64,000 nt of DNA from Streptomyces sp. SUK 48 (GTDB lineage Bacteria; Actinomycetota; Actinomycetes; Streptomycetales; Streptomycetaceae). A program made the translations under genes and the position numbers. The stretch spans positions 682,001 through 746,000 of the forward strand of contig NZ_CP045740.1 of NCBI RefSeq assembly GCF_009650765.1, in the 5' to 3' direction. The notes below the pieces were generated by a model. That model was not told where the DNA came from and did no database searches. It saw only the letters and a program-made list of their open reading frames with translations. Of the stretch, positions 51,886 through 63,282 are shown one piece after another (the first letter of the stretch is position 1; every line of letters begins with the position of its first letter).

Positions 51886-52101
51886 GGCCCGGGATAGACC
51901 AGGGCGGCCCACCGGTCCGGTTCACTGCCGCGGTCGGCCGGTACGTAGGCGTGGCCGTCCCAGTACCAGAGCCGCTCCGGGGCGAACAGATGCCGGGGCA
52001 GTTCTTCGGCGGCCCCGCCGGATCCACGGGGCGCGGGCCGGCCAAAGGCCCCGCTGCTCCATCGCGGCCGCCAGCCGCCGACGCTGCTGGGCGAGGGTCA
52101 C
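51886..52101 (-). pseudogene. 5' fragment of PIMT-like methyltransferase
   Basis: From the GTG at 52101 this matches the first 70 or so codons of the intact methyltransferase at 56536-57693. An extra C in the run at about 52013 shifts the frame. The homology ends at 51886, so the SAM-binding domain is absent. It cannot encode an enzyme. Confidence 0.9.
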
Positions 52102-52126
52102 AACCTAGTCCTTCTTGTGTTTCCCG

Positions 52127-52222
52127 TCAGGCTGAGTCGGCTTGGGGGGTCTGGCCGTCGGCGTTGTCCGGCGGTGGCTTGCCCTGGCTCAGATCCGGCT
52201 GCGGCTTCTCGTGCTTGCCCAT
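52127..52222 (-). pseudogene. Frameshifted copy of the KHKKD peptide gene
   Basis: Same start and ribosome-binding site as the peptide gene at 57697-57813. A run of six G instead of five (52144-52149) shifts the frame after residue 26, so the product would end ...QTPQADSA at 31 residues, without the KHKKD tail. Confidence 0.85.
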
Positions 52223-52411
52223 GGTGCTCCTTGCGGCTTACCGGCTGACCGGGGGCCATGCTGACACGCGGCCAAGCGTGTCGGACAGAGAGCCTTTTCC
52301 GCCACAGCCGGTGGATGTGCCGCACGGCGAGGAAAGCATGACGCGGCCCCTGCCCGCGCGGAGCCCCGCACCCTCTGACCGCTCTCGGATTCGGACGGGT
52401 CAGGCGACCGA

Positions 52412-52804
52412 TCAGACAGCTGGATGCACGTCGTCCTGGCCGACGGGCACGCTTTCCGGGACTGCGCCCTTCGCGTGCCTAAGAGCCTGCCGGGCAGCGA
52501 CCATGGCCGCGCCCTTGATGCCCTCGCCCCTGCACTGCTCCCACCACGTGTGGCACTGCACCAGCACGGTGGCGGCGCGCAGCTTCGCCAGCAGCTGGTC
52601 GAATTGGCCTGCCGCGCTGAGCGTCCAACCGGGTGACGCGGGCCGGCCGCGCCACTCTCTTCCTCGCTCGGCCTCGTCTGGCCAGCCGGGGTGAGGCTCA
52701 CGGGACCAGGGAAGCGTCGCCTGGTGGGCGTGGAGGGCGGCGTACAGTTCCGCCGCCCGGCACTGGGCTGCGATCAGATCGGCAGGGAAGTCGTGCGGGT
52801 CGAA
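52412..52804 (-). pseudogene. 5'-truncated hypothetical protein of mobile-element type
   Basis: The C-terminal part has good codon bias: FDPHDFPADLIAAQCRAAEL, then HQATLPWSREPHPGWPDEAE and FDQLLAKLRAATVLVQCHTW, ending VPVGQDDVHPAV. The DFP-x-DL-x-AAQ opening resembles short proteins often found on actinomycete integrative elements. No start codon lies in frame before the coding signal ends at about 52800, where a transposase remnant begins on the other strand. The gene was probably cut by that insertion. Confidence 0.6.
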
Positions 52805-53080
52805 TACAACACCGAAGCCCGCACCGGCTGCTGGACGGCCGTACCCCGCTGGCCGCCTGGCAGAAGGACGAAGCGCCCTGAACCGGATCGGCACGGACAA
52901 GTTGTGCCACCTGCTGCTGGGCCGGCGACGAGCGCGCGATCCAGAAGGACGGCATCCGCCTGGGCGGGCACGCCTACGACGCCTCCGAGATCGGACGGGT
53001 CGGCCCGCTCGTCCAGGTCTGCTCCATGCCGCACAAGGACCGGTCCATCGAGGTCTGCCTGGGCGGTCTTTACGCGACTG
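52795..53080 (+). pseudogene. Decayed DDE/Mu-type transposase 3' end
   Basis: Three pieces in three frames form the end of a transposase. VRVEYNTE and HRLLDGRTPLAAWQKDEAP fit the end of an integrase-core domain (typical YNTE...RPH..L.GRTPL.AW). NRIGTDKLCHLLL and DERAIQKDGIRLGGHAYDAS, followed by VCSMPHKDRSIEVC, fit a Mu-transposase C-terminal domain. At least three frame changes make it non-functional. No terminal inverted repeats were identified. Confidence 0.6.
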
Positions 53081-53184
53081 GCGCGTGGCCAATACCGTGC
53101 GCTTGGTGTCCGATTTCGTGAACTTTCCGCGCTTCGGCGGTTGTTCAGCGCATCATGGGGGTTCCGAGCGAGGGGAGACTTGCG

Positions 53185-53325
53185 GTGGGCTGGGGCACTG
53201 GTGCGGGCGGATCTGGCGGCGACGGGAAGCACGCGGGCAAGAAGGACCCGGGGGCGTCGAAGCCGTCCTCGGACTCCGCCCGGCCGAGTCCGGAGCCGAA
53301 GCACAAGAAGGACGAATCGAAGTAG
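53185..53325 (+). CDS. Tiny Lys/Asp/Ser/Pro-rich peptide upstream of a methyltransferase
   Basis: A 46-residue peptide from a GTG with GGGGAG eight bases upstream. It has a Gly-rich start (VGWGTGAGGSGG), then DGKHAGKKDPGASKPSSDS, and ends PSPEPKHKKDESK. There is no signal peptide or cysteine. The stop is 10 bp before the ATG of the methyltransferase. It shares the DGKH and KHKKD strings and the gene order with the peptide at 57697-57813, though the rest differs. It is a candidate substrate of the adjacent enzyme (inference). Confidence 0.6.
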   Translation: MGWGTGAGGSGGDGKHAGKKDPGASKPSSDSARPSPEPKHKKDESK

Positions 53326-53335
53326 GTACGCGGAC

Positions 53336-54547
53336 ATGATGCAGACGAGCGACGCCGAGCGGGAGGCTGCGGACCGTCTGCTCGGCCAGGTCGAGGAAGC
53401 TCTCGGCGCGCCTGTGGCGCCTCCGTGGGTGGCCGCTTTCCGTGAGACGCCCCGGACCGCGTTCCTGCCCGATCGCGTGTGGGTCGGTGACGGCCTGGAG
53501 GAGATATCCCGCAGGGCCGACCCGAAGGCGTGGTTGGAGGCGGCCTACGCGGATGGGCCCGTGGTCACGCAGGTCAACGACGGCCGGGCGGTGGAGGCGG
53601 GCGAGGAGCTGTGGCCGTCGTGCAGTGCCTCCGCACCGTCGGTCGTGTTCCGGATGCTCGGCCTTCTGGACGTGCAGGACGGGCAGCGGATCTGCGAGGT
53701 CGGGACGGGGACGGGATGGAACGCCGCCCTCCTCGCCCGCCGGGTCGGAGCGGACCGGGTGACGACGATCGAGGTCGACCCAGGGCTGTCCGAGGAGGCG
53801 AGGGTGCGACTGGCTCGGGCCGGGGTTGCGCCGCGGGTCGTGTGCGGGGACGGTGCCGAGGGGGATGCGGCCGGGGCGCCGTACGACCGGTGGGAGTCAA
53901 CCTGCTCGGTGCGCAGGGTGCCTTCCGCGTGGCTGGAGCAGACGCGGCCCGGCGGTGTCATCGTGACGCCCTGGGACTCGGCGTGGTTCACGTACGGGCT
54001 GCTGCGGTTGGTGGTGGGCGAGGACGGGGATGCCTGCGGGCGGTTCCTGCCGTACTCGGCCTTCATGGGGCGCCGCGAGGAGCGTACGGATCTGCGGATC
54101 TACCGTGACGTGGTCCGCGACGAGCATGTCCCGGCCGAGTCGCGGACCGATCTGTCTCCGTGGTCCGTCGCCGGGGACGGACAGTGGGACATCCGGTTCA
54201 CGCTCGGGCTGCTCCTGCCGGACTTGTGGTCCACGTGGCATCACGACCCGGACGTGGACGGGGTGAAAGTTCGGCTGTGGGTCGCCTCGACCGACGCCGC
54301 CTCGTGGGCCGCCGTCGACTGGGACGGCACGTCCGACGAGATGTTCACGGTGTGGCAGCACGGCGCCGGCGGCCGGCGGGTGTGGGACGAGGTCGAGTCG
54401 GCGTACCGGTGGTGGGTGTCCAACAGGAGTCCGGGCCCGGACCGGTACGGAATGAGCCTGGCCGCGGGCGGAAGGCGGACTGTATGGCTGGACCGTCCTG
54501 GCAACCCGGTCCCCGCGTCTAGGGCGTGGCCGCCTGCGAAGAGGTAG
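53336..54547 (+). CDS. PIMT-like SAM-dependent methyltransferase (second cassette)
   Basis: A 403-residue protein related to protein-L-isoaspartate O-methyltransferase. It contains the SAM loop RICEVGTGTGWNAALLARRV, an acidic motif VTTIEVDPGLSEEAR, and VVCGDGAEGDAAGAPYDRW, then WLEQTRPGGVIVTPWDSAW. The C-terminal 200 residues (HVPAESRTDLSPW ... TVWLDRPG) are an extension not found in minimal PIMT and resemble the actinobacterial methyltransferases that act on peptides. Two adjacent ATGs (53336, 53339) are possible starts. It follows the tiny peptide gene directly. Confidence 0.88.
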   Translation: MMQTSDAEREAADRLLGQVEEALGAPVAPPWVAAFRETPRTAFLPDRVWVGDGLEEISRRADPKAWLEAAYADGPVVTQVNDGRAVEAGEELWPSCSASAPSVVFRMLGLLDVQDGQRICEVGTGTGWNAALLARRVGADRVTTIEVDPGLSEEARVRLARAGVAPRVVCGDGAEGDAAGAPYDRWESTCSVRRVPSAWLEQTRPGGVIVTPWDSAWFTYGLLRLVVGEDGDACGRFLPYSAFMGRREERTDLRIYRDVVRDEHVPAESRTDLSPWSVAGDGQWDIRFTLGLLLPDLWSTWHHDPDVDGVKVRLWVASTDAASWAAVDWDGTSDEMFTVWQHGAGGRRVWDEVESAYRWWVSNRSPGPDRYGMSLAAGGRRTVWLDRPGNPVPASRAWPPAKR

Positions 54548-54630
54548 GGCGGCTGTCCCGGCGCAAGCGCCCTACCTCCTACTGGGGAGCTCCCCCCGTC
54601 GTCCGGGGCCGCCCAGCGAACCCGTCGGTT

Positions 54631-54771
54631 TCAGAACGCCCCCGAACTGATCGGGGCTTCGGGCTGTACGAGAGTGTTCATCAGCTTCTTGCCGGTGTCG
54701 GCGTCGACAACGGCGACCTCCGTTGGCGCTGCCTCGACCGGCGGTGTGCCTGGCCCTGGCGAGGGGGGTGA
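54631..54771 (-). pseudogene. Remnant of a DEDDh-type exonuclease gene
   Basis: A short frame reads TEVAVVDADTGKKLMNTLVQ then PEAPISSGAF and a stop. This matches the second strand and loop of DnaQ-like exonucleases (typically EIAVVDA.TG..L..TLV.P..PIS.GA). The rest of the gene is missing on both sides. Length is too short for certainty. Confidence 0.35.
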
Positions 54772-54786
54772 ACGTCCGGCCAGCGC

Positions 54787-55107
54787 CTAGAACGTGCAGT
54801 GCACGGGAACAGGAGCAGCAAGAACCCAGCCTGTCGGTGTCTCGTACTCCATGCTCGCGGTCACATGGCACAGCACGGCGTACTGCGTGCCGTCGAACAG
54901 CACCTTCAACCGTGTCAGCCGCCCGGTGCGGGAGGTATCCACGATGGTGCCCTTCTTCCCATGTCTGCGGACCCGTCCGCCGATCTCGACACGGATACCG
55001 AAGCGCGCCTCCAACTGGTAGTGGGAGACGATTTGTTCCAGGTCGGCCGCGTGCCTGCGCCTCTCGGCGAGCTTGGCCAGGGCATGGTCGAGGTTGTCGT
55101 TCGTCAC
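54787..55107 (-). CDS. Hypothetical protein with KOW-like module
   Basis: A 106-residue protein from a GTG. A predicted coiled-coil helix (NLDHALAKLAERRRHAADLE) is followed by a small beta-rich part with RVEIGGRVRRHGKKGTIVDT and RLKVLFDGTQYAVLCHVTAS. The pattern resembles the short beta-barrel found in KOW/SH3-like domains. Function unknown; its neighbours are gene fragments, but this frame looks intact. Confidence 0.7.
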   Translation of the reverse strand: MTNDNLDHALAKLAERRRHAADLEQIVSHYQLEARFGIRVEIGGRVRRHGKKGTIVDTSRTGRLTRLKVLFDGTQYAVLCHVTASMEYETPTGWVLAAPVPVHCTF

Positions 55108-55176
55108 GAGACGCGAGCTTTCGCTGTGGAGGCAGTGAGTCAGGTCAGGGTATGGGCCCCCGTCGCTGATGCGCGG

Positions 55177-55632
55177 CTACACGGTGGCCGGGGCGGCCCC
55201 GTAGCTCGGGACGCGTTCGACGACCGGGTGCCCGGACCGCTTCTGCGTCTCCTCGTCGTTGCGGCCCGCTCCGCGGCAGGCGGTAAGGGTGTGCCGGTCG
55301 CCGTGCCCGTCGTACGCCCAGCGCTCGTTGTGGTCGTCGGTGAGCACGCGCAGGTTGCCGTCCAGCAGGAGGTAGGCCCGGGCGTCCCCGGACCAGGCGA
55401 CCGACAGGGTGCCGCCCGGGGTGTGGGCGGCGACGAACCGCGGCGGCCGGTAGGGTCCAGCTCCCGTGGTCGGGGTCCCGGTCGGGCTGGCTGGCGTACC
55501 GGTCACGTTCGGCCCCAGTCCCTGGGCTGACCGGTAGCTGCGGCTCGGTGTCGTGTGCCCGTGGAGTGAGCAGGGCGCGAGCGGCCGTGCGCTGATGTAG
55601 TAGCAAGACCGCTGGTTCGACGGGTATCCCAT
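55177..55632 (-). pseudogene. Fragment of a PP2C-type phosphatase
   Basis: The segment PRFVAAHTPGGTLSVAWSGD followed by ARAYLLLDGNLRVLTDDHNE is the central part of PP2C phosphatases (GDSRAYLL..G.L..LT.DH). N-terminal metal-binding motifs and the C-terminal DG...D motif are missing, and the flanks have poor codon bias. I regard it as debris; the real start, if any, may be the GTG near 55506. Confidence 0.6.
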
Positions 55633-55636
55633 AGGG

Positions 55637-56539
55637 TCACAGGATGTTCCACCGTAGGTGGGGGTCTTGCTGGAGCCCGTCGATACGGCGCTTGACCTCG
55701 TCGTAGGTTCGGGGCGCGCTGGGTACCTTGCGGGCGTTGGTGGTGATCATGCGTAGTTCGCGGATGGCGGCGAGGGTGGAGTAGCCGGGCCAGCGGGTGA
55801 TGTCCCAGCCGTAGGTGTCGGCGAAGGCGGCGTAGTGGGCTTGGCCGTGTCCGAAGCGGCGGCAGTGGACTTCGATGGTGACCAGGTCCCACTCGGGCTG
55901 TCCGAAGGCGACGGTGTCCCAGTCGCACAGGACGACCTCGCCGTCTTCGGTGTACAGCGCGTTGCGGTGCTGGGGATCACCCTGGATCACCCCGGGAGGC
56001 AGAGCGTAGGCGACCTGCGCCAGCTCGGCCTCCAGTTCGTCGGCGCGCTCGCTCAGGTAGGCGAGGGTGTGAGGCGGGAGGCAGGTGATGGAGTTGATGG
56101 ACCGGCGGATGGCTCTGAGGTTGTCGTGGTCGGGAAGGACTATGGGCGGGCGTGGGAGTGTGTGCAGGGCGTGCAGGGGCTTGGCGAGCTGCGCGGCGGT
56201 GACCGGGTGCGGAGGTTGGGGGAAGTAGCGCCACAGGGTGGCTGCGTGTCCGTCGAGGAGAAGGGGTTGGTGCACGGGGTGGAGAGGTGTTGTGGGGAAG
56301 CCGTTGTCCATGAGCCAGGCGACGAGGTCGACGGTGTGCTGGACTTGGGCAGGGGATGAGCCGTTGCGCGCGATCTTGAGGACGACAGGATCGTGTGCGA
56401 GTCGGAAGACGGCGTTGGTGTGGCCACGGAGCAGGCGCGCGTCGCGGGGGTCGAGGCCGGCCATCGCGCAGGCTTGGTGCAGGAGGCGGTCGAGTTGGGC
56501 GGGGGCGAAGCCGCCGGGGGCGGAGGCGGGCGTGGTCAT
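55637..56539 (-). CDS. APH-family phosphotransferase
   Basis: A 300-residue kinase of the aminoglycoside/choline kinase fold. A weak ATP-binding lobe (VFRLAHDPVVLKIARNG, with the lysine) is followed by the catalytic loop GVIQGDPQHRNALYTEDGEV and the metal site VLCDWDTVAFGQPEWDL. The substrate is unknown; many such proteins in Streptomyces clusters do not act on antibiotics. Its ATG overlaps the stop of the methyltransferase by four bases, so it is the third gene of a peptide-methyltransferase-kinase operon. An extended frame upstream is only a shadow. Confidence 0.88.
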   Translation of the reverse strand: MTTPASAPGGFAPAQLDRLLHQACAMAGLDPRDARLLRGHTNAVFRLAHDPVVLKIARNGSSPAQVQHTVDLVAWLMDNGFPTTPLHPVHQPLLLDGHAATLWRYFPQPPHPVTAAQLAKPLHALHTLPRPPIVLPDHDNLRAIRRSINSITCLPPHTLAYLSERADELEAELAQVAYALPPGVIQGDPQHRNALYTEDGEVVLCDWDTVAFGQPEWDLVTIEVHCRRFGHGQAHYAAFADTYGWDITRWPGYSTLAAIRELRMITTNARKVPSAPRTYDEVKRRIDGLQQDPHLRWNIL

Positions 56540-57693
56540 GAGCTCGTAGGGTTGGTTCCCACCTGGAGGCGGTTTGGGGTATCCGTGTTCCACCAGGGGT
56601 TCTCGGGGGTTTGGCACCATACGTACTGCTGATGGGGCTCGACCGTCATGGCGAAGTCGTACAGGTCGGGCTCGCCCGCTGCCTGCCAGCGGTCCCAGGC
56701 GTCTTCGAGTTCGTCGGCCAAGCGGCGCGGGCCGCCCTCGTCGGCGACGCTCTTGCCGCCACCCAGCGCTGAGATCGCGGCCCATGAGGAGTCACCGTCG
56801 TGGAGCCAGGCGTTCATACCGTCCTGGTCGGCCCCCGTGGTGATCTGAACCTCGGGCAGCGCCACCCGCAGCGCGAACTGGAGGTGGACATTGGTGGCCA
56901 GGGGGGAGAGGTCCCGGGTGAACGGCCGCTCGCGCGTCGAGAGGCCGTTGCCGCGTACCTGCTGCCATCTGCGTCCGGCCGCGATTCCGCGAGCGGGCAT
57001 GAACTGGGCGAGCCCCTGCATCCAGCCTGAGGCCGACCGGCTGTCCTCGGCGACGGTGAGCGCTACATGTCCAAGGCGTCCCCATGGGAGGACGATCCTG
57101 CCTCCGGGTCGGGTCTGGGCGATCCAGGCCCATGGGACCTGGTCGACGGCGTACGTCGCGATCACGCGGTCGTACGGCGCGCCGTCAGGCCGGCCTGCGG
57201 CGCCGTCGCCGCAGACGGCGGTTACGTCGATGCCGGCCGCTTCCAGGGTTTGCCGGGCGGTGGCGGCCAGTTCCTCGTCGGCTTCGATGGTGGTCACGTT
57301 GCCGGGTCCCGCGCGGCGGGCGGCGAGGGCGGCGTTGCGTCCGCTGCCGGTGCCGAGCTCCAGGACGCGGTGGCCCGGCTCCAGCAGCAGGGAGTCGAGC
57401 ATGTCCGCGACGACCGCCTCGCAGCTCAGGCTGGAACCCGGGACACCGCTGCTGATCTGGGTGATCGTGGCGTCATCCGGCCCGGGATAGACCAGGGCGG
57501 CCCACCGGTCCGGCTCACTGCCGCGGTCGGCCGGTACGTAGGCGTGGCCGTCCCAGTACCAGAGTCGCTCCGGGGCGAACAGATGCCGGGGCAGTTCTTC
57601 GGCGGCCTGCCGGATCCACGGGGCGCGGGCCGGCCAAAGGCCCCGCTGCTCCATCGCGGCCGCCAGCCGCCGACGCTGCTGGGCGAGGGTCAC
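56536..57693 (-). CDS. PIMT-like SAM-dependent methyltransferase (first cassette)
   Basis: A 385-residue protein from a GTG. The N-terminal MTLAQQRRRLAAAMEQRG and WIRQAAEELPRHLFAPERLW are typical of PIMT-like enzymes from actinobacteria. ITQISSGVPGSSLSCEAV takes the place of the substrate loop TSSASQPS. The SAM site is VLELGTGSGRNAALAARRAG, then TTIEAD, VCGDGAAG and WIAQTRPGGRIVLPWG. It starts 3 bp after the peptide stop and overlaps the kinase gene at its end. Its 5' end is duplicated at 51886-52101. It probably methylates a carboxylate, perhaps in the neighbouring peptide (inference). Confidence 0.9.
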   Translation of the reverse strand: MTLAQQRRRLAAAMEQRGLWPARAPWIRQAAEELPRHLFAPERLWYWDGHAYVPADRGSEPDRWAALVYPGPDDATITQISSGVPGSSLSCEAVVADMLDSLLLEPGHRVLELGTGSGRNAALAARRAGPGNVTTIEADEELAATARQTLEAAGIDVTAVCGDGAAGRPDGAPYDRVIATYAVDQVPWAWIAQTRPGGRIVLPWGRLGHVALTVAEDSRSASGWMQGLAQFMPARGIAAGRRWQQVRGNGLSTRERPFTRDLSPLATNVHLQFALRVALPEVQITTGADQDGMNAWLHDGDSSWAAISALGGGKSVADEGGPRRLADELEDAWDRWQAAGEPDLYDFAMTVEPHQQYVWCQTPENPWWNTDTPNRLQVGTNPTSS

Positions 57694-57696
57694 AAC

Positions 57697-57813
57697 CTAG
57701 TCCTTCTTGTGTTTCCCGTCAGGCTGAGTCGGCTTGGGGGTCTGGCCGTCGGCGTTGTCCGGCGGTGGCTTGCCCTGGCTCAGATCCGGCTGCGGCTTCT
57801 CGTGCTTGCCCAT
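57697..57813 (-). CDS. Tiny KHKKD peptide, first gene of a methyltransferase operon
   Basis: A 38-residue, highly hydrophilic peptide. It begins MGKHEKPQPDLSQGKPPP, continues DNADGQTPKPTQPDGKHKKD and stops. An AAGGAG site six bases before the ATG is excellent. There is no signal peptide, cysteine or hydrophobic core. It has two Asp-Gly steps, which are prone to isoaspartate formation, the classical PIMT substrate. Only three bases separate it from the methyltransferase. The codons are GC-rich at the third position, so it is a real gene despite its size. Candidate modified peptide or chaperone-like partner (inference). Confidence 0.75.
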   Translation of the reverse strand: MGKHEKPQPDLSQGKPPPDNADGQTPKPTQPDGKHKKD

Positions 57814-57853
57814 GGTGCTCCTTGCGGCTTACCGGCTGACCGGGGGCCATGCT

Positions 57854-57873
57854 GACACGCGGCCAAGCGTGTC
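57854..57873. promoter_or_regulatory. Dyad gacacgc-N6-gcgtgtc upstream of the peptide gene
   Basis: A perfect 7-bp inverted repeat, 40 bp upstream of the peptide ATG and between the peptide operon and the divergent XRE gene. The same dyad is kept in the left repeat copy at 52263-52282. Plausible operator for the XRE protein, or a leader hairpin. Confidence 0.5.
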
Positions 57874-58071
57874 GGATAGAGGGCATTTTCCGCCACAGCC
57901 GGTGGATGTGCCGCACGGTGAGGTAGCTGTTCAAGGGGGCATTGCGGACGCTTCCTGCTCGAGCAGATCAGGGACTTTGCCCGGAGGACGTGGCGATGGG
58001 TGGGGCACTCGCCGTCTCGGGTCTACCGCGCGGGGGTACCTTCCTGCTGAGCGCAAGGAATGGAGCCCAGC

Positions 58072-59301
58072 ATGCCCCAATACAGCGATACCGGGGGGAG
58101 CGTGGAGAGCAACGGGCAGCGCCTTGCCCGGCTTCGTGCTCGCCGCCGGTGGACACAGCAACGCCTGGCTACGGAGGCCGGGTACTCCCTCGCCGCGATC
58201 AAGGCGTACGAACAAGGCCGGCGCAGTTTGGAACGGTCCCAGATAGTCCTGGCCTTCGCGAAGGTCCTGGACTGCCATCCGACCGAGATCACGGGCGCTC
58301 CGTTCGTGCCGGTCTCTTCTGACACGGAAGGCCAGGCTGCGGTCGCGTCGGTCGCCGCGGTGCGCCGGGCGCTGCTGCGGCACGGTCGGCCAGCACGGCC
58401 GGCGGAGCACGAGGTCGCGGCCATCGACCTGGCCGAGCTCGGCCGACGGGTTGCCGCGGCGAACGGCTACCGGCAGGCGGCTTCGCTGGCGCGGTCCGGG
58501 GCGGTACTGCCGGCACTGCTGCGCGATCTTCAGGTGGCGTGCGAGGTGAGCCAAGGCGATGGGCGTCGGCAGGTGTTCGCTCTGCTGACCTCCGGCTATG
58601 AGTGTGCGATGCAGTACCTCTACATGCTCGGGCACACGTCGGATGCGACGTTGGCGACTGAGCGCGTGATGTGGTCGGCGCGGGAGACGGGTGACCGGCT
58701 GCGGGTACTGGCCGCGCAGTGGTACGACGCGGGTGAGTTCCTCGCGATCGGCGAGCACGACGAGGCCGGCGACATCATCGACGACGCCCTCACCGGCCTC
58801 GGATCCGGCCGGGAGACGCGCCCCGAGGCTGTCTCGCTGCGTGGAGCCTTCCACCTCAAGGCAGCCCTGAACTCGGCCCGGGCCGCAGACGCACAGACCG
58901 CGGAGCAGCACTGGGTGAAGGCGAAGGAGGCCGCGGAGCAGCTCGGTCAGGACCGCAATGACTTCCAGCTGCAGTTCGGGCCGACGAACGTCGCGATCTG
59001 GGGTGTCTCGCTGCCGGTGGAGCTGGGCAACGGCCGCGTCGCCGTCGACCGGGCCGAACAGGTCCGCCTGCCGCAGCACTTCGCTCCAGAGCGACACTCC
59101 CACCACTACATCGACGTGGGCCGGGCCTACTTCTATAGCGGGCAGAAGGACAAGGCGCTCGGTGCGTTCCTGAAGGCCGAACGTGCGGCCCCGCAGGTGA
59201 CGCGCATGCACGCCGGCGTGCGGGAGACGGTGGGCACGATGATTCGCACGCAAAAGCGCGGGGATCTACTCGAACTGGGCATCCGGCTCGGCGTCGTGTG
59301 A
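58072..59301 (+). CDS. XRE-family regulator with TPR-like C-terminal domain
   Basis: A 409-residue regulator. The N-terminal HTH is clear (GQRLARLRARRRWTQQRLAT followed by AGYSLAAIKAYEQGRRSL). The rest is helical, with TPR-like pairs (YECAMQYLYMLGHTSDATLA; AEQHWVKAKEAAEQLG; YIDVGRAYFYSGQKDKALGA). The build resembles RRNPP-type peptide-responsive regulators, though the family cannot be assigned from sequence alone. The ATG at 58072 has GGAG six bases upstream, better than the in-frame ATG at 58060. It is transcribed away from the peptide-methyltransferase operon, with a dyad in the gap. Confidence 0.88.
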   Translation: MPQYSDTGGSVESNGQRLARLRARRRWTQQRLATEAGYSLAAIKAYEQGRRSLERSQIVLAFAKVLDCHPTEITGAPFVPVSSDTEGQAAVASVAAVRRALLRHGRPARPAEHEVAAIDLAELGRRVAAANGYRQAASLARSGAVLPALLRDLQVACEVSQGDGRRQVFALLTSGYECAMQYLYMLGHTSDATLATERVMWSARETGDRLRVLAAQWYDAGEFLAIGEHDEAGDIIDDALTGLGSGRETRPEAVSLRGAFHLKAALNSARAADAQTAEQHWVKAKEAAEQLGQDRNDFQLQFGPTNVAIWGVSLPVELGNGRVAVDRAEQVRLPQHFAPERHSHHYIDVGRAYFYSGQKDKALGAFLKAERAAPQVTRMHAGVRETVGTMIRTQKRGDLLELGIRLGVV

Positions 59302-59338: not shown

Positions 59339-59393
59339 CCCCCTGGTCGCTACGGTCGGTCTTGAACTCGCCGACATGAGCTCGACCAGGGGG
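59339..59393 (+). promoter_or_regulatory. Hairpin covering the ribosome-binding site of the HATPase gene
   Basis: Perfect 11-bp arms ccccctggtcg (59339-59349) and cgaccaggggg (59383-59393), with an inner 5-bp pair (gtcgg/ccgac) in the loop. The right arm contains the AGGGGG ribosome-binding site for the ATG at 59400, so folding would hide it. Possible translational control. Confidence 0.6.
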
Positions 59394-59399
59394 TTTGCC

Positions 59400-60035
59400 A
59401 TGACCGTGATGCTCCAGGCACAAACCAGCGCCTTACTGCCCCAGGCAGCCGAACCTCCCTGTCTCCGTCGCGCCCCGGGGGCATCCCCGGCTCCAACCTC
59501 GGCGGCACCTCACCAGGCAGGGCCGCAGGCAGGCGGCACCCGCTTGCTCCCGTCCACACAGCCCCTCCCGCATGCCCCGGCATCTGCGGCAGCAGCCTCC
59601 CCTACGAGCTCCCCGAGGTGCGGGATCCCCGTCGGCGCACACCAACTCCACGCCGCCTACGCGACCGGCTCTTCCTTCCTGGGCGATGCGCGCCGTGCGG
59701 TGACCGTATGTCTGCACCGTTGGCGGCTGGAGGATGCTGCCTACGCGGCAACTCTGGTGGTCAGCGAACTGCTCGGCAACGCAGTCCAGCATGGCTGCCA
59801 GTACCCCACCGACACCGCCACTCTGCTCTTGACCGCGCTGCCTGAACGACAGCTGCTCATCGAAGTCCACGACCCCTCCCCGGCCAGCCCTTCCCTCATC
59901 ACGGCCGGGCCGGAGTCGGAGCACGGCCGTGGACTCGCCCTGGTCGACGCCATGAGCTCCAAGTGGGGCTGGACGAACGCTCCCGACGGGGGCAAGTACG
60001 TCTGGTCAACAATGGACGCAAGGGCCGCAGCATGA
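59400..60035 (+). CDS. HATPase_c_2 ATP-binding regulator (RsbW-like)
   Basis: A 211-residue protein. A disordered Ala/Pro/Ser-rich N-terminus of about 85 residues precedes the kinase-type ATP fold. The N box is VVSELLGNAVQHGCQYP, the G1 box VHDPSPASPSL and the G2 box EHGRGLALVDAMSSKWGW. Such small ATPases act as anti-sigma kinases in Streptomyces. The ATG at 59400 has AGGGGG seven bases upstream; the earlier ATG at 59376 lies inside the hairpin loop. Confidence 0.85.
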   Translation: MTVMLQAQTSALLPQAAEPPCLRRAPGASPAPTSAAPHQAGPQAGGTRLLPSTQPLPHAPASAAAASPTSSPRCGIPVGAHQLHAAYATGSSFLGDARRAVTVCLHRWRLEDAAYAATLVVSELLGNAVQHGCQYPTDTATLLLTALPERQLLIEVHDPSPASPSLITAGPESEHGRGLALVDAMSSKWGWTNAPDGGKYVWSTMDARAAA

Positions 60036-61560: not shown

Positions 61561-62478
61561 CTACACGGGAGCAGTGCAGCGGAAGCCGGTGTCGTTGTCC
61601 GACATCGACGCGGCAGCCGTGTTCTGCAGGGACGGAGCTGCGCGTTCGAACGGGGACGTGAAGGCGGAGCCCTTCAAGTGGTAACGACCTTTGCCGGGCT
61701 CTTCCTCGGTGGAGCACCACTCCCAGACGTTGCCGCACAGGTCGAAGATTCCGAACGGGCTGGCGCCGGACTGGTAGCGGGAGACGGGGGTCGTCGCATC
61801 GATGCCGGCCTCGGACGTGTTCGCCTTCGCGGCGGTCGGTTCGTTGCCCCAGGGGTAGATGCGCCCTCGCCGACCGCGAGCCGCCTTCTCCCACTGCCGG
61901 GCGGTGGGCAGGGACTTACCGGCCCAGCGGGCGTACGCGGCTGCGTCGTGCCAGGTGACCCAGACCACCGGGTGCGTGGCCAAAGTGACAGGGCAATGGC
62001 CGTCGGGCCAGTGCCGAGGCGGCCGGTGGTTGGTGGCCACCACGAACTTCGCATAGTCCTGGTTGGTCGTGGGGTAGACGTCGATGAGGAACGGCTCCAG
62101 CCACACCGAGCGGTTGTCGGGTCCGGAGAGGTAGATGCCCTCTTCGACGAGGGCCATGACCTTTCCGTCGACCGGGTGCCGGCGGGTGCTCGGGTCCCTG
62201 CGCAGCAGCGCCTCGGCTCGTTCGTCGTGCTCGGCAGCGGCTCGTTCGGTCAGCAGCGCGGCGAATCGCTGCTGGACGTCGGTCGGGGCCTGGGCGAGGA
62301 GCGTGTCCAGGGCGGCCTGGTTGTCGAGTCCGAGCTCGATGGTCTCCCCGCGTCCTTTCCACCGTGGGACCTGGCGAGGGTTCACACCGACCAGATCGGC
62401 GAAGTCCTTCTGCTTCTTGCGCATCGCCATGCGCAACAACTCGGCTTCTCTACCGGTCCACCTGGTCACCCCCGCCAT
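61561..62478 (-). CDS. HTH plus FGE-sulfatase-fold protein
   Basis: A 305-residue protein. An N-terminal helical DNA-binding-like part (LLRMAMRKKQKDFADLVGVN ... PRQVPRWKGRG) is followed by an FGE-sulfatase/SUMF1 domain. Landmarks are VYPTTNQDYAKFV, HPVVWVTWHDAAAYARWAGK, SLPTARQWEKAARG and IFDLCGNVWEWCS. The copper-binding cysteine pair of true formylglycine-generating enzymes is absent near the C-terminus (...NDTGFRCTAPV). It is therefore likely a non-FGE member, with a binding or different oxidative role. The next upstream gene, 9 bp away, is a class IV aminotransferase. Confidence 0.85.
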   Translation of the reverse strand: MAGVTRWTGREAELLRMAMRKKQKDFADLVGVNPRQVPRWKGRGETIELGLDNQAALDTLLAQAPTDVQQRFAALLTERAAAEHDERAEALLRRDPSTRRHPVDGKVMALVEEGIYLSGPDNRSVWLEPFLIDVYPTTNQDYAKFVVATNHRPPRHWPDGHCPVTLATHPVVWVTWHDAAAYARWAGKSLPTARQWEKAARGRRGRIYPWGNEPTAAKANTSEAGIDATTPVSRYQSGASPFGIFDLCGNVWEWCSTEEEPGKGRYHLKGSAFTSPFERAAPSLQNTAAASMSDNDTGFRCTAPV

Positions 62479-62487
62479 GGTCTCGCC

Positions 62488-63282
62488 TTACAGGGTCTCG
62501 CCGGGGATGGACAGGTACGCCTCCTGGAGTTGCCTCAGGACCGGATGGTCCACGGGGAACTCGGTGTCGTCGATCGCAGCCAGCGGCCGGACCCCGATCG
62601 AGGTGTTGGTGGCGAAGGCGGCTGCCATGCCCTTCGCCTGGTCCAAGGTGACGGTGGCGGTGCGGTGTTCGGCCTGCTGCTGGAGCAGGGCCATCGTGAC
62701 GCCGGGGAGCACAGGGGCGTCCGGCCAGACGATGGTGCCGTCCTGGTCGACGAAGGCCACGTTCCAGGTTCCGCCCTCGGAGACAAGGCCGTCCCGGCCG
62801 ACGAAGAGGGCGTCGTCGAAACTCGCGCGCTGAGCCGCGCCTCGGGCGTGCAGGGCTCCGAACAGGCCGACGTGCTTCACCTGGGGGAGATCGCGCTCGT
62901 ACATCAGACTCTGGGCGCGCAGCGGCGCGGGAGGCAGCGCGCCAGCGCTGCGGACGGACACGAGAACGTGGGGCTCGCTGGCGTCGGCCGGATGCCCCAT
63001 CTCGACCTTGGGGTCGTAGATGGAGACGCGTACGACGCACGGCAGGGTCTGTCCCTCCAGGGCCTGGCGGACGTATCCGCGCACGCGGTCGGTGTCCAGG
63101 GCCGCGTGCCACACGATCTCGCAGTCCCGCACGAGGCGTTCCAAGTGCAGGGACAGGCCACGGATGCTGCCGTCGGTGTCCACGCGCATGGACGTGAAGT
63201 GCCCGATGTTTGTGAGGGCCAGGGGGAGCAGGTCGTCTACGGATACGGGCTTGCCGTCAAGAGTCGCCATGGCGGCCAGCAT
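62488..63282 (-). CDS. Class IV aminotransferase family PLP enzyme
   Basis: A 264-residue PLP enzyme of the branched-chain aminotransferase/aminodeoxychorismate-lyase fold. The PLP lysine lies in ERDLPQVKHVGLFGALHARG. FDDALFVGRDGLVSEGGTWN is the second signature and PGVTMALLQQQAE the third. It may act on an amino acid or aminodeoxychorismate-like substrate. The ATG at 63282 is used; an in-frame ATG at 63270 is an alternative. It forms an operon with the FGE-fold gene. Confidence 0.9.
   Translation of the reverse strand: MLAAMATLDGKPVSVDDLLPLALTNIGHFTSMRVDTDGSIRGLSLHLERLVRDCEIVWHAALDTDRVRGYVRQALEGQTLPCVVRVSIYDPKVEMGHPADASEPHVLVSVRSAGALPPAPLRAQSLMYERDLPQVKHVGLFGALHARGAAQRASFDDALFVGRDGLVSEGGTWNVAFVDQDGTIVWPDAPVLPGVTMALLQQQAEHRTATVTLDQAKGMAAAFATNTSIGVRPLAAIDDTEFPVDHPVLRQLQEAYLSIPGETL

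Follow-up and report, generated by a model that had tools for sequence, protein, structure and literature searches.

The window analysed here is a stretch of 64,000 nucleotides from the genome of Streptomyces sp. SUK 48 (G000:C1:682001-746000; the genome is a single contig of 8.34 Mb). It contains two cassettes about 2 kb apart, each composed of a small peptide gene and the gene of a PIMT-like methyltransferase, and with high confidence these can be regarded as two imiditide cassettes which have an APH-family kinase and an XRE regulator as mere neighbours. A first-pass annotation had put peptide, methyltransferase, kinase and regulator together to a candidate new system of ribosomally synthesised and post-translationally modified peptides (RiPPs). 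Its peptide genes are very probably real and its guess on the chemistry very probably holds, but the class has already been described, and what it proposed for the kinase and the XRE gene fails upon comparison with related loci. The genes of the two cassettes are the following:

57697..57813, minus strand: peptide 1, predicted imiditide/type I pamtide precursor of 38 amino acids, ATG start at 57813, predicted modified residue D22
56536..57693, minus strand: MT1, PIMT homologue (peptide L-aspartyl O-methyltransferase, PAMT) with a C-terminal extension, GTG start at 57693, TGA stop at 56536, PCMT domain of Pfam
53185..53325, plus strand: peptide 2, 46 amino acids, predicted precursor belonging to a second imiditide/pamtide family, GTG start, TAG stop
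53336..54547, plus strand: MT2, second PIMT homologue (PAMT), ATG start at 53336, PCMT domain of Pfam

The layout given in the first-pass annotation, with peptide 1, MT1 and the kinase in a row, a divergent XRE gene and a second cassette on the opposite strand, was reproduced with its coordinates, including the 3-bp gap between the peptide 1 stop and the MT1 start and the 4-nt ATGA which joins the MT1 stop to the kinase start. The gap between peptide 2 and MT2 is 10 bp.

Relatives of MT1 were collected from 295 genomes of the genus (19 with a match at E<=1e-60, the own genome included), from genome contigs and from plasmid records, six of the 20 listed being used (H1-H3 and H7-H9). Counting L013 and L056, whose contigs are identical with equal length, only once as L056, this gave 32 distinct MT1 loci; L018, a short match from Chloroflexota, was left unused. 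For MT2, 77 of the 295 genomes had a match at E<=1e-60, and the 16 loci compared are the best matches outside the window, with 54-61% identity to MT2. Flanks are shorter than 6 kb in L011, L016, L042, L054, L062, L063 and L146, and downstream of the methyltransferase L016 holds about 320 bases and L063 about 22.

A peptide of the peptide 1 type is recognisable directly upstream of the methyltransferase in 28 of the 32 MT1 loci, 25 of them found by script and three by eye (L041, L042 and L058, which the pattern missed or clipped). The peptide 2 type, which differs in sequence from peptide 1, lies upstream in 14 of the 16 MT2 loci. The conserved small reading frame for which the first-pass annotation had suggested a search is hence found with both methyltransferases. 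The MT2 clade is separate from that of MT1 (100/99), and each peptide family pairs with its own methyltransferase clade. One peptide, that of L040, has no ATG, GTG or TTG at the expected position. Alignment of the peptide 1 family (26 rows, 25 plus the window) yielded H4, K6, P7, G14, P17, P18, D22, G33 and K37 as invariant columns. The aspartate at position 22, which stands in the context N-A-D-G in peptide 1 (N-x-D-G), occurs in 26/26 rows, the following residue being glycine in 25 rows and histidine in one, and peptide 1 ends in the basic tail GKHKKD. The peptide 2 family (15 rows, 14 plus the window) is invariant at W3, G4, T5, G6, H16, K20-D21-P22-G23, P27, S28, D30, P34, P38 and H40. Differences by codon position are 0.27/0.24/0.50 among the 26 sequences of the peptide 1 family and 0.18/0.15/0.36 among the 15 of the peptide 2 family. 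In both the third position is highest, the pattern expected of translated, selected frames; to judge from it and from the conservation of each peptide in its own family, both peptide genes are very probably real.

The letters DGKH and KHKKD, to which the first-pass annotation had drawn attention, do occur in both peptides, but DGKH does not stand as a shared modification site. Its aspartate in peptide 1, D32, is an aspartate in three of the 26 rows, the window's among them, and its counterpart in peptide 2, D13, is aspartate in 10 of 15 rows, asparagine in two, serine in two and glycine in one. Two aspartates are invariant in all 15 rows of the peptide 2 family, D21 in the context D-P and D30 in the context S-S-D-S. 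An aspartate in front of a proline cannot form an aspartimide, as the proline has no amide hydrogen. Because D21 precedes a proline, D30 is the preferred candidate for the modified residue.

Both methyltransferases have TIGR04188 as their best NCBIfam model, with 248 bits for MT1 and 276 bits for MT2, where the match spans residues 27-379, at a curated cut-off of 380. The AlphaFold model of MT1 (mean predicted local distance difference test score 88.6) aligns over residues 6-363 with 1DL5, the PIMT of T. maritima, at a root mean square deviation of 7.5 over 288 residues, and MT1 is related to this enzyme in fold; in a Foldseek search none of the viral models matched over the full length. Near its C-terminus MT1 carries WQAAGEP, an instance of the motif WXXXGXP which is present in 27 of its 32 relatives and in nine of the 16 relatives of MT2. 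With their PCMT domain and XRE-type genes nearby, the two enzymes might instead act on other proteins, as repair PIMTs or as regulatory enzymes, and the small reading frames might encode antitoxin-like or regulatory peptides rather than substrates. This is very improbable in view of the C-terminal extension and the MT1 motif, both as in RiPP-associated PIMTs, of the invariant aspartate in each peptide family and its tie to one methyltransferase clade, and of published work in which this two-gene layout has been reconstituted (PMC13001092, PMC10787088).

Imiditides, or type I pamtides, a class described in 2023, have a precursor of about 45 amino acids rich in Gly, Pro, Asp and Lys and a PIMT homologue as sole modifying enzyme. 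Streptomyces and Actinomadura are the genera in which they are commonest; the type I members number 1,414, and two of them, NmaA and SpaA, have been expressed. The aspartate is methylated and converted to an aspartimide which can hydrolyse to isoaspartate (PMC13001092, PMC10787088). In the window, the precursor gene stands directly before the PIMT homologue in both cassettes, and among the open reading frames (ORFs) tested for domains, which were picked from the ORF calls over about 47-64 kb, no other primary RiPP enzyme was found. Both peptides are rich in Gly, Pro, Asp and Lys and have a conserved aspartate and a charged C-terminus, and both enzymes possess the extra C-terminal domain, MT1 according to its model and MT2 according to the span of the TIGR04188 match. 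Both cassettes therefore very probably belong to this class, in which they are placed by architecture and published description, SpaA and NmaA being compared by description. The earlier statement that they fit no known RiPP class is accordingly wrong, as they fit the published imiditides. Its further statement that no LanB, LanC or ATP-grasp gene is nearby agrees with the domains of the tested ORFs.

Several observations weigh against this assignment. Four of the 32 MT1 loci lack an intact peptide (none in L016, L044 and L063, a fused and truncated one in L052), as do two of the 16 MT2 loci (L148 and L149). The TIGR04188 scores of both methyltransferases fall under the curated cut-off. The MT2 motif, WVSNRSP, is devoid of the glycine of WXXXGXP, which is also missing in seven of its 16 relatives. 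Finally, the evidence on the tail is mixed in the published work: NmaA without its last five residues was still modified, and without its last ten it was not (PMC13001092). As a side observation, the fusion in L052 (G225:C1) joins the N-terminal part of the precursor in frame with the methyltransferase, the region of the modified aspartate being missing.

The best NCBIfam model being one associated with ATP-grasp enzymes, and a match to it above the cut-off being present elsewhere in the own genome, the cassettes could be read as decayed graspetide or lanthipeptide clusters which lost their ATP-grasp or LanB/LanC gene. This reading is hardly credible, since the two-gene form is kept in many relatives' loci, no recognised ATP-grasp peptide ligase or LanB is found among the top 12 neighbour families per set which recur in at least three loci, and both peptides are hydrophilic and free of cysteine. 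Other known kinds of system were considered as well. A type II pamtide or cysimiditide like FcaA, TceA and NalA does not fit, as the zinc motif CXXCXGXG is absent and neither peptide has a cysteine. A graspetide methyltransferase of the TIGR04188 type does not fit with 248 and 276 bits versus 380, and the neighbouring ORFs that were tested contain no ATP-grasp domain. A defence-system reading was dismissed; the PADLOC hit mad2 spans the methyltransferase stretch only in both enzymes, the hits RmrA and capH are to the helix-turn-helix (HTH) of the XRE gene, and PADLOC gave no match for the kinase.

According to the explanation preferred here, the cassettes would be two independent two-gene imiditide units in which the precursor is translated just ahead of the PIMT-like peptide L-aspartyl O-methyltransferase. 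The enzyme would recognise the linear peptide, probably via its conserved basic C-terminal tail, and O-methylate a single conserved aspartate, D22 in peptide 1 and D30 in peptide 2. The methyl ester would then collapse spontaneously to an aspartimide, to be hydrolysed to isoaspartate or aspartate. Chemistry and tail role are inferred from published relatives; in SpaA, swapping the last five residues abolished the modification (PMC13001092). That the peptide is the substrate of the methyltransferase, with the aspartate passing through an aspartimide, had been suggested in the first-pass annotation and is by this analogy very probably correct.

Around the two cassettes further features are found:

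51886..52332, minus strand: partial duplicate of peptide 1, the 5' end of MT1 and about 110 bp of upstream DNA, frameshifted
55637..56539, minus strand: APH-family kinase, 300 amino acids, ATG at 56539, probably a strain-specific neighbour outside the system
58060..59301, plus strand: XRE regulator, divergent from peptide 1, with a putative role in the control of peptide 1
57854..57873: inverted repeat GACACGC-N6-GCGTGTC, 41-60 bp ahead of the peptide 1 start, a possible operator

The partial duplicate forms a direct repeat of 447 bp with 57479-57923 (438/447 identical, 98%, two gaps), and because two 1-nt indels in it disrupt both the peptide and the MT1 frame, it is a dead copy. Position 51886, with which the first-pass annotation began its region, is indeed a boundary, but that of the repeat and not of an intact cassette. 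In the preferred explanation local rearrangement would have brought the kinase and the XRE gene next to cassette 1, and the broken duplicate is a further sign of such rearrangement.

APH-type kinases phosphorylate serine and threonine residues in class V lanthipeptides and thioamitides. A single pathway might thus be envisaged in which the aspartimide is formed, the kinase then phosphorylates a serine or threonine of the peptide, and the XRE gene is in control. The 4-nt overlap on the same strand suggests co-transcription, so that the kinase may be expressed together with MT1 here, and its stretches QGDPQHRN and DWD, common to all 16 orthologues examined, are intact. The comparison of loci makes such a pathway highly improbable. 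No APH homologue (E<=1e-4) was found in any of 33 MT1 loci, 31 of which have usable downstream DNA (L016 and L063 hold less than 350 bp), and none (E<=1e-6) in the 16 MT2 loci. The only serine (S12) and the threonines (T25, T29) of peptide 1 fall into columns dominated by other residues. Outside the window at least 17 full-length APH orthologues with 58-65% identity exist, of which 16 were used; a second copy in G069 and partial matches in G019, G187 and G093 were omitted. All 16 sit directly behind a gene related to a regulator of 466 amino acids, REG466, which was not found in the own genome at E<=1e-20, in a search run without a positive control. The kinase was therefore rejected as a conserved third gene, and the second modification step assigned to it earlier falls with this; it is probably a strain-specific neighbour. 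Consistent with a recent junction, the closest MT1 relative found, P0005 (90% identity overall), aligns without gaps to residue 368 and is dissimilar thereafter, the similarity ending about 50 bp before the kinase start.

The pair of REG466 and APH gene (L150-L165) is itself conserved in Streptomyces in varying contexts, with a HATPase_c_2-type homologue upstream in eight of the 16 loci. Of three REG466 proteins examined with Pfam, two gave an HTH domain, one of them above the cut-off. In L158 (5770-12719, from G050) REG466 and the APH orthologue precede a PCMT gene, LanB and LanC; this may be a lanthipeptide cluster which combines aspartimide chemistry with a kinase. It is the one locus of the 16 through which a link between APH kinases and PAMTs stays conceivable.

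For the regulator, the earlier label XRE-TPR stands in its first half: HTH_31 matches above the Pfam cut-off, but the match to TPR_2 (E=0.017) is below it. Orthologues with 62-70% identity occur in four of 294 other genomes with differing neighbours, and over about 6 kb around these four there is no homologue of MT1, MT2 or APH. Homologues with 25-28% identity are near four of the 32 distinct MT1 loci and one of the 16 MT2 loci, and another XRE family is near five of the 32 MT1 loci; the MT1 counts have no random-locus baseline and are not read as enrichment. The XRE gene is hence not supported as the dedicated partner for which the first-pass annotation had taken it. When the 246 bp of intergenic DNA were searched for an operator, a single dyad with 7-bp arms came up, judged to be within chance without a computed control.

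Adjoining the XRE gene is a HATPase_c_2 gene (59376-60035), and this arrangement resembles the abaA/whiJ layout (PMC10294661). The terms methyltransferase, RiPP and DUF6879 do not appear in the main text of PMC10294661 or PMC10364602, and DUF6879 was not met in the literature searched. In nine of the 16 MT2 loci (L135, L139-L144, L146 and L147) a module of DUF6879 and XRE/DUF5753 genes stands near the MT2-type cassette. Six of the nine have, on the same strand and in this order, a small gene, DUF6879, XRE, the peptide and MT2; in the other three the module is reversed, and the small gene is present in two of them. From 2-10 DUF6879 matches per genome in the 16 genomes about 0.13 such loci would be expected; as the count was made post hoc in the same 16 related loci, the binomial P is indicative only. 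The module has no match in the window. Downstream of one of the four XRE orthologues (L130) stand a small gene, DUF6879 and XRE/DUF5753. Because nine of 16 MT2 loci adjoin the module and L130 sits beside the same kind, imiditides may tentatively be imagined as self-made signals or effectors switched by WhiJ-like XRE loci of Streptomyces which regulate development or antibiotics, with phages having captured cassettes and the window's XRE gene switching peptide 1. This picture is rather unlikely as a whole, and that an XRE-type locus regulates imiditides is a guess. Beyond these genes, an FGE-sulfatase-type gene adjoins a class IV aminotransferase gene at 61561-63282 of the window.

Four of the 32 MT1 loci (L051, L053, L054 and L058) have a second PAMT gene at a distance of up to about 6 kb, against roughly 0.35 expected for an even spread of seven others per 8.3 Mb, the number in the own genome. 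In L051 and L053 this second gene has its own candidate peptide, and in L058 it stands behind an ORF which by eye resembles radical SAM proteins. Together with the window, these loci suggest that different imiditide/PAMT cassettes cluster within a few kb. Elsewhere in the own genome, at G000:C1:7137863-7138933 (L002/L167), a PAMT gene with an overlapping small upstream ORF containing P-D-G possibly represents a third imiditide-type precursor.

Full-length PAMTs with 36-37% identity to MT1 are encoded by Austintatiousvirus phages:

L174-L177 and L188-L190: phage loci, from Bioscum, Alderaan, Austintatious, PapayaSalad and IMG/VR contigs

In four phages and three viral contigs a conserved Gly/Ser-rich ORF of 47-70 amino acids, which contains SSDG, ends 8 bp upstream of the PAMT gene, which has the lysis genes on one side and the repressor/integrase region on the other (e.g. 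L174:2750-4086). Judged from these sequences, temperate Streptomyces phages likely carry an imiditide cassette; titles in the literature on the four phage names contain nothing on imiditide cassettes. The function of imiditides was left open by a 2026 review (PMC13001092). The window adds two well-defined imiditide families with D22 and D30 as predicted modified residues, and its relatives point to regulatory modules and to temperate phages as settings where a function could be sought.

Compared with known systems, the window shares the APH family with the kinases of class V lanthipeptides and thioamitides, but the orthologues of its kinase stand behind a regulator gene, and none of its tested ORFs gave a lantibiotic dehydratase, LANC or HopA1 domain. 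With cysimiditides it shares the kind of enzyme and the predicted conversion of aspartate to aspartimide and isoaspartate, and with the methyltransferases of ATP-grasp peptide maturases the model TIGR04188; graspetide PAMTs, however, have an ATP-grasp partner, which is absent from the tested ORFs. The closest likeness is to SpaA-SpaM of Streptomyces sparsogenes and NmaA-NmaM of Nonomuraea maritima, likewise two genes with a PIMT homologue as the sole modifier. The words kinase, XRE and phosphotransferase are not contained in the main text of PMC13001092 or PMC10787088. Size and composition of the precursor, a conserved aspartate near proline or glycine, a basic C-terminus and an enzyme with a C-terminal domain are common to the imiditides and the cassettes described here, and the histidine after the modified aspartate of NmaA (PMC13001092, PMC10787088) has its counterpart in N-A-D-H at D22 in L012, a member of the peptide 1 family. 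Different from the described imiditides are an MT2 without strict WXXXGXP and the occurrence of two families about 2 kb apart, accompanied by a broken third copy.

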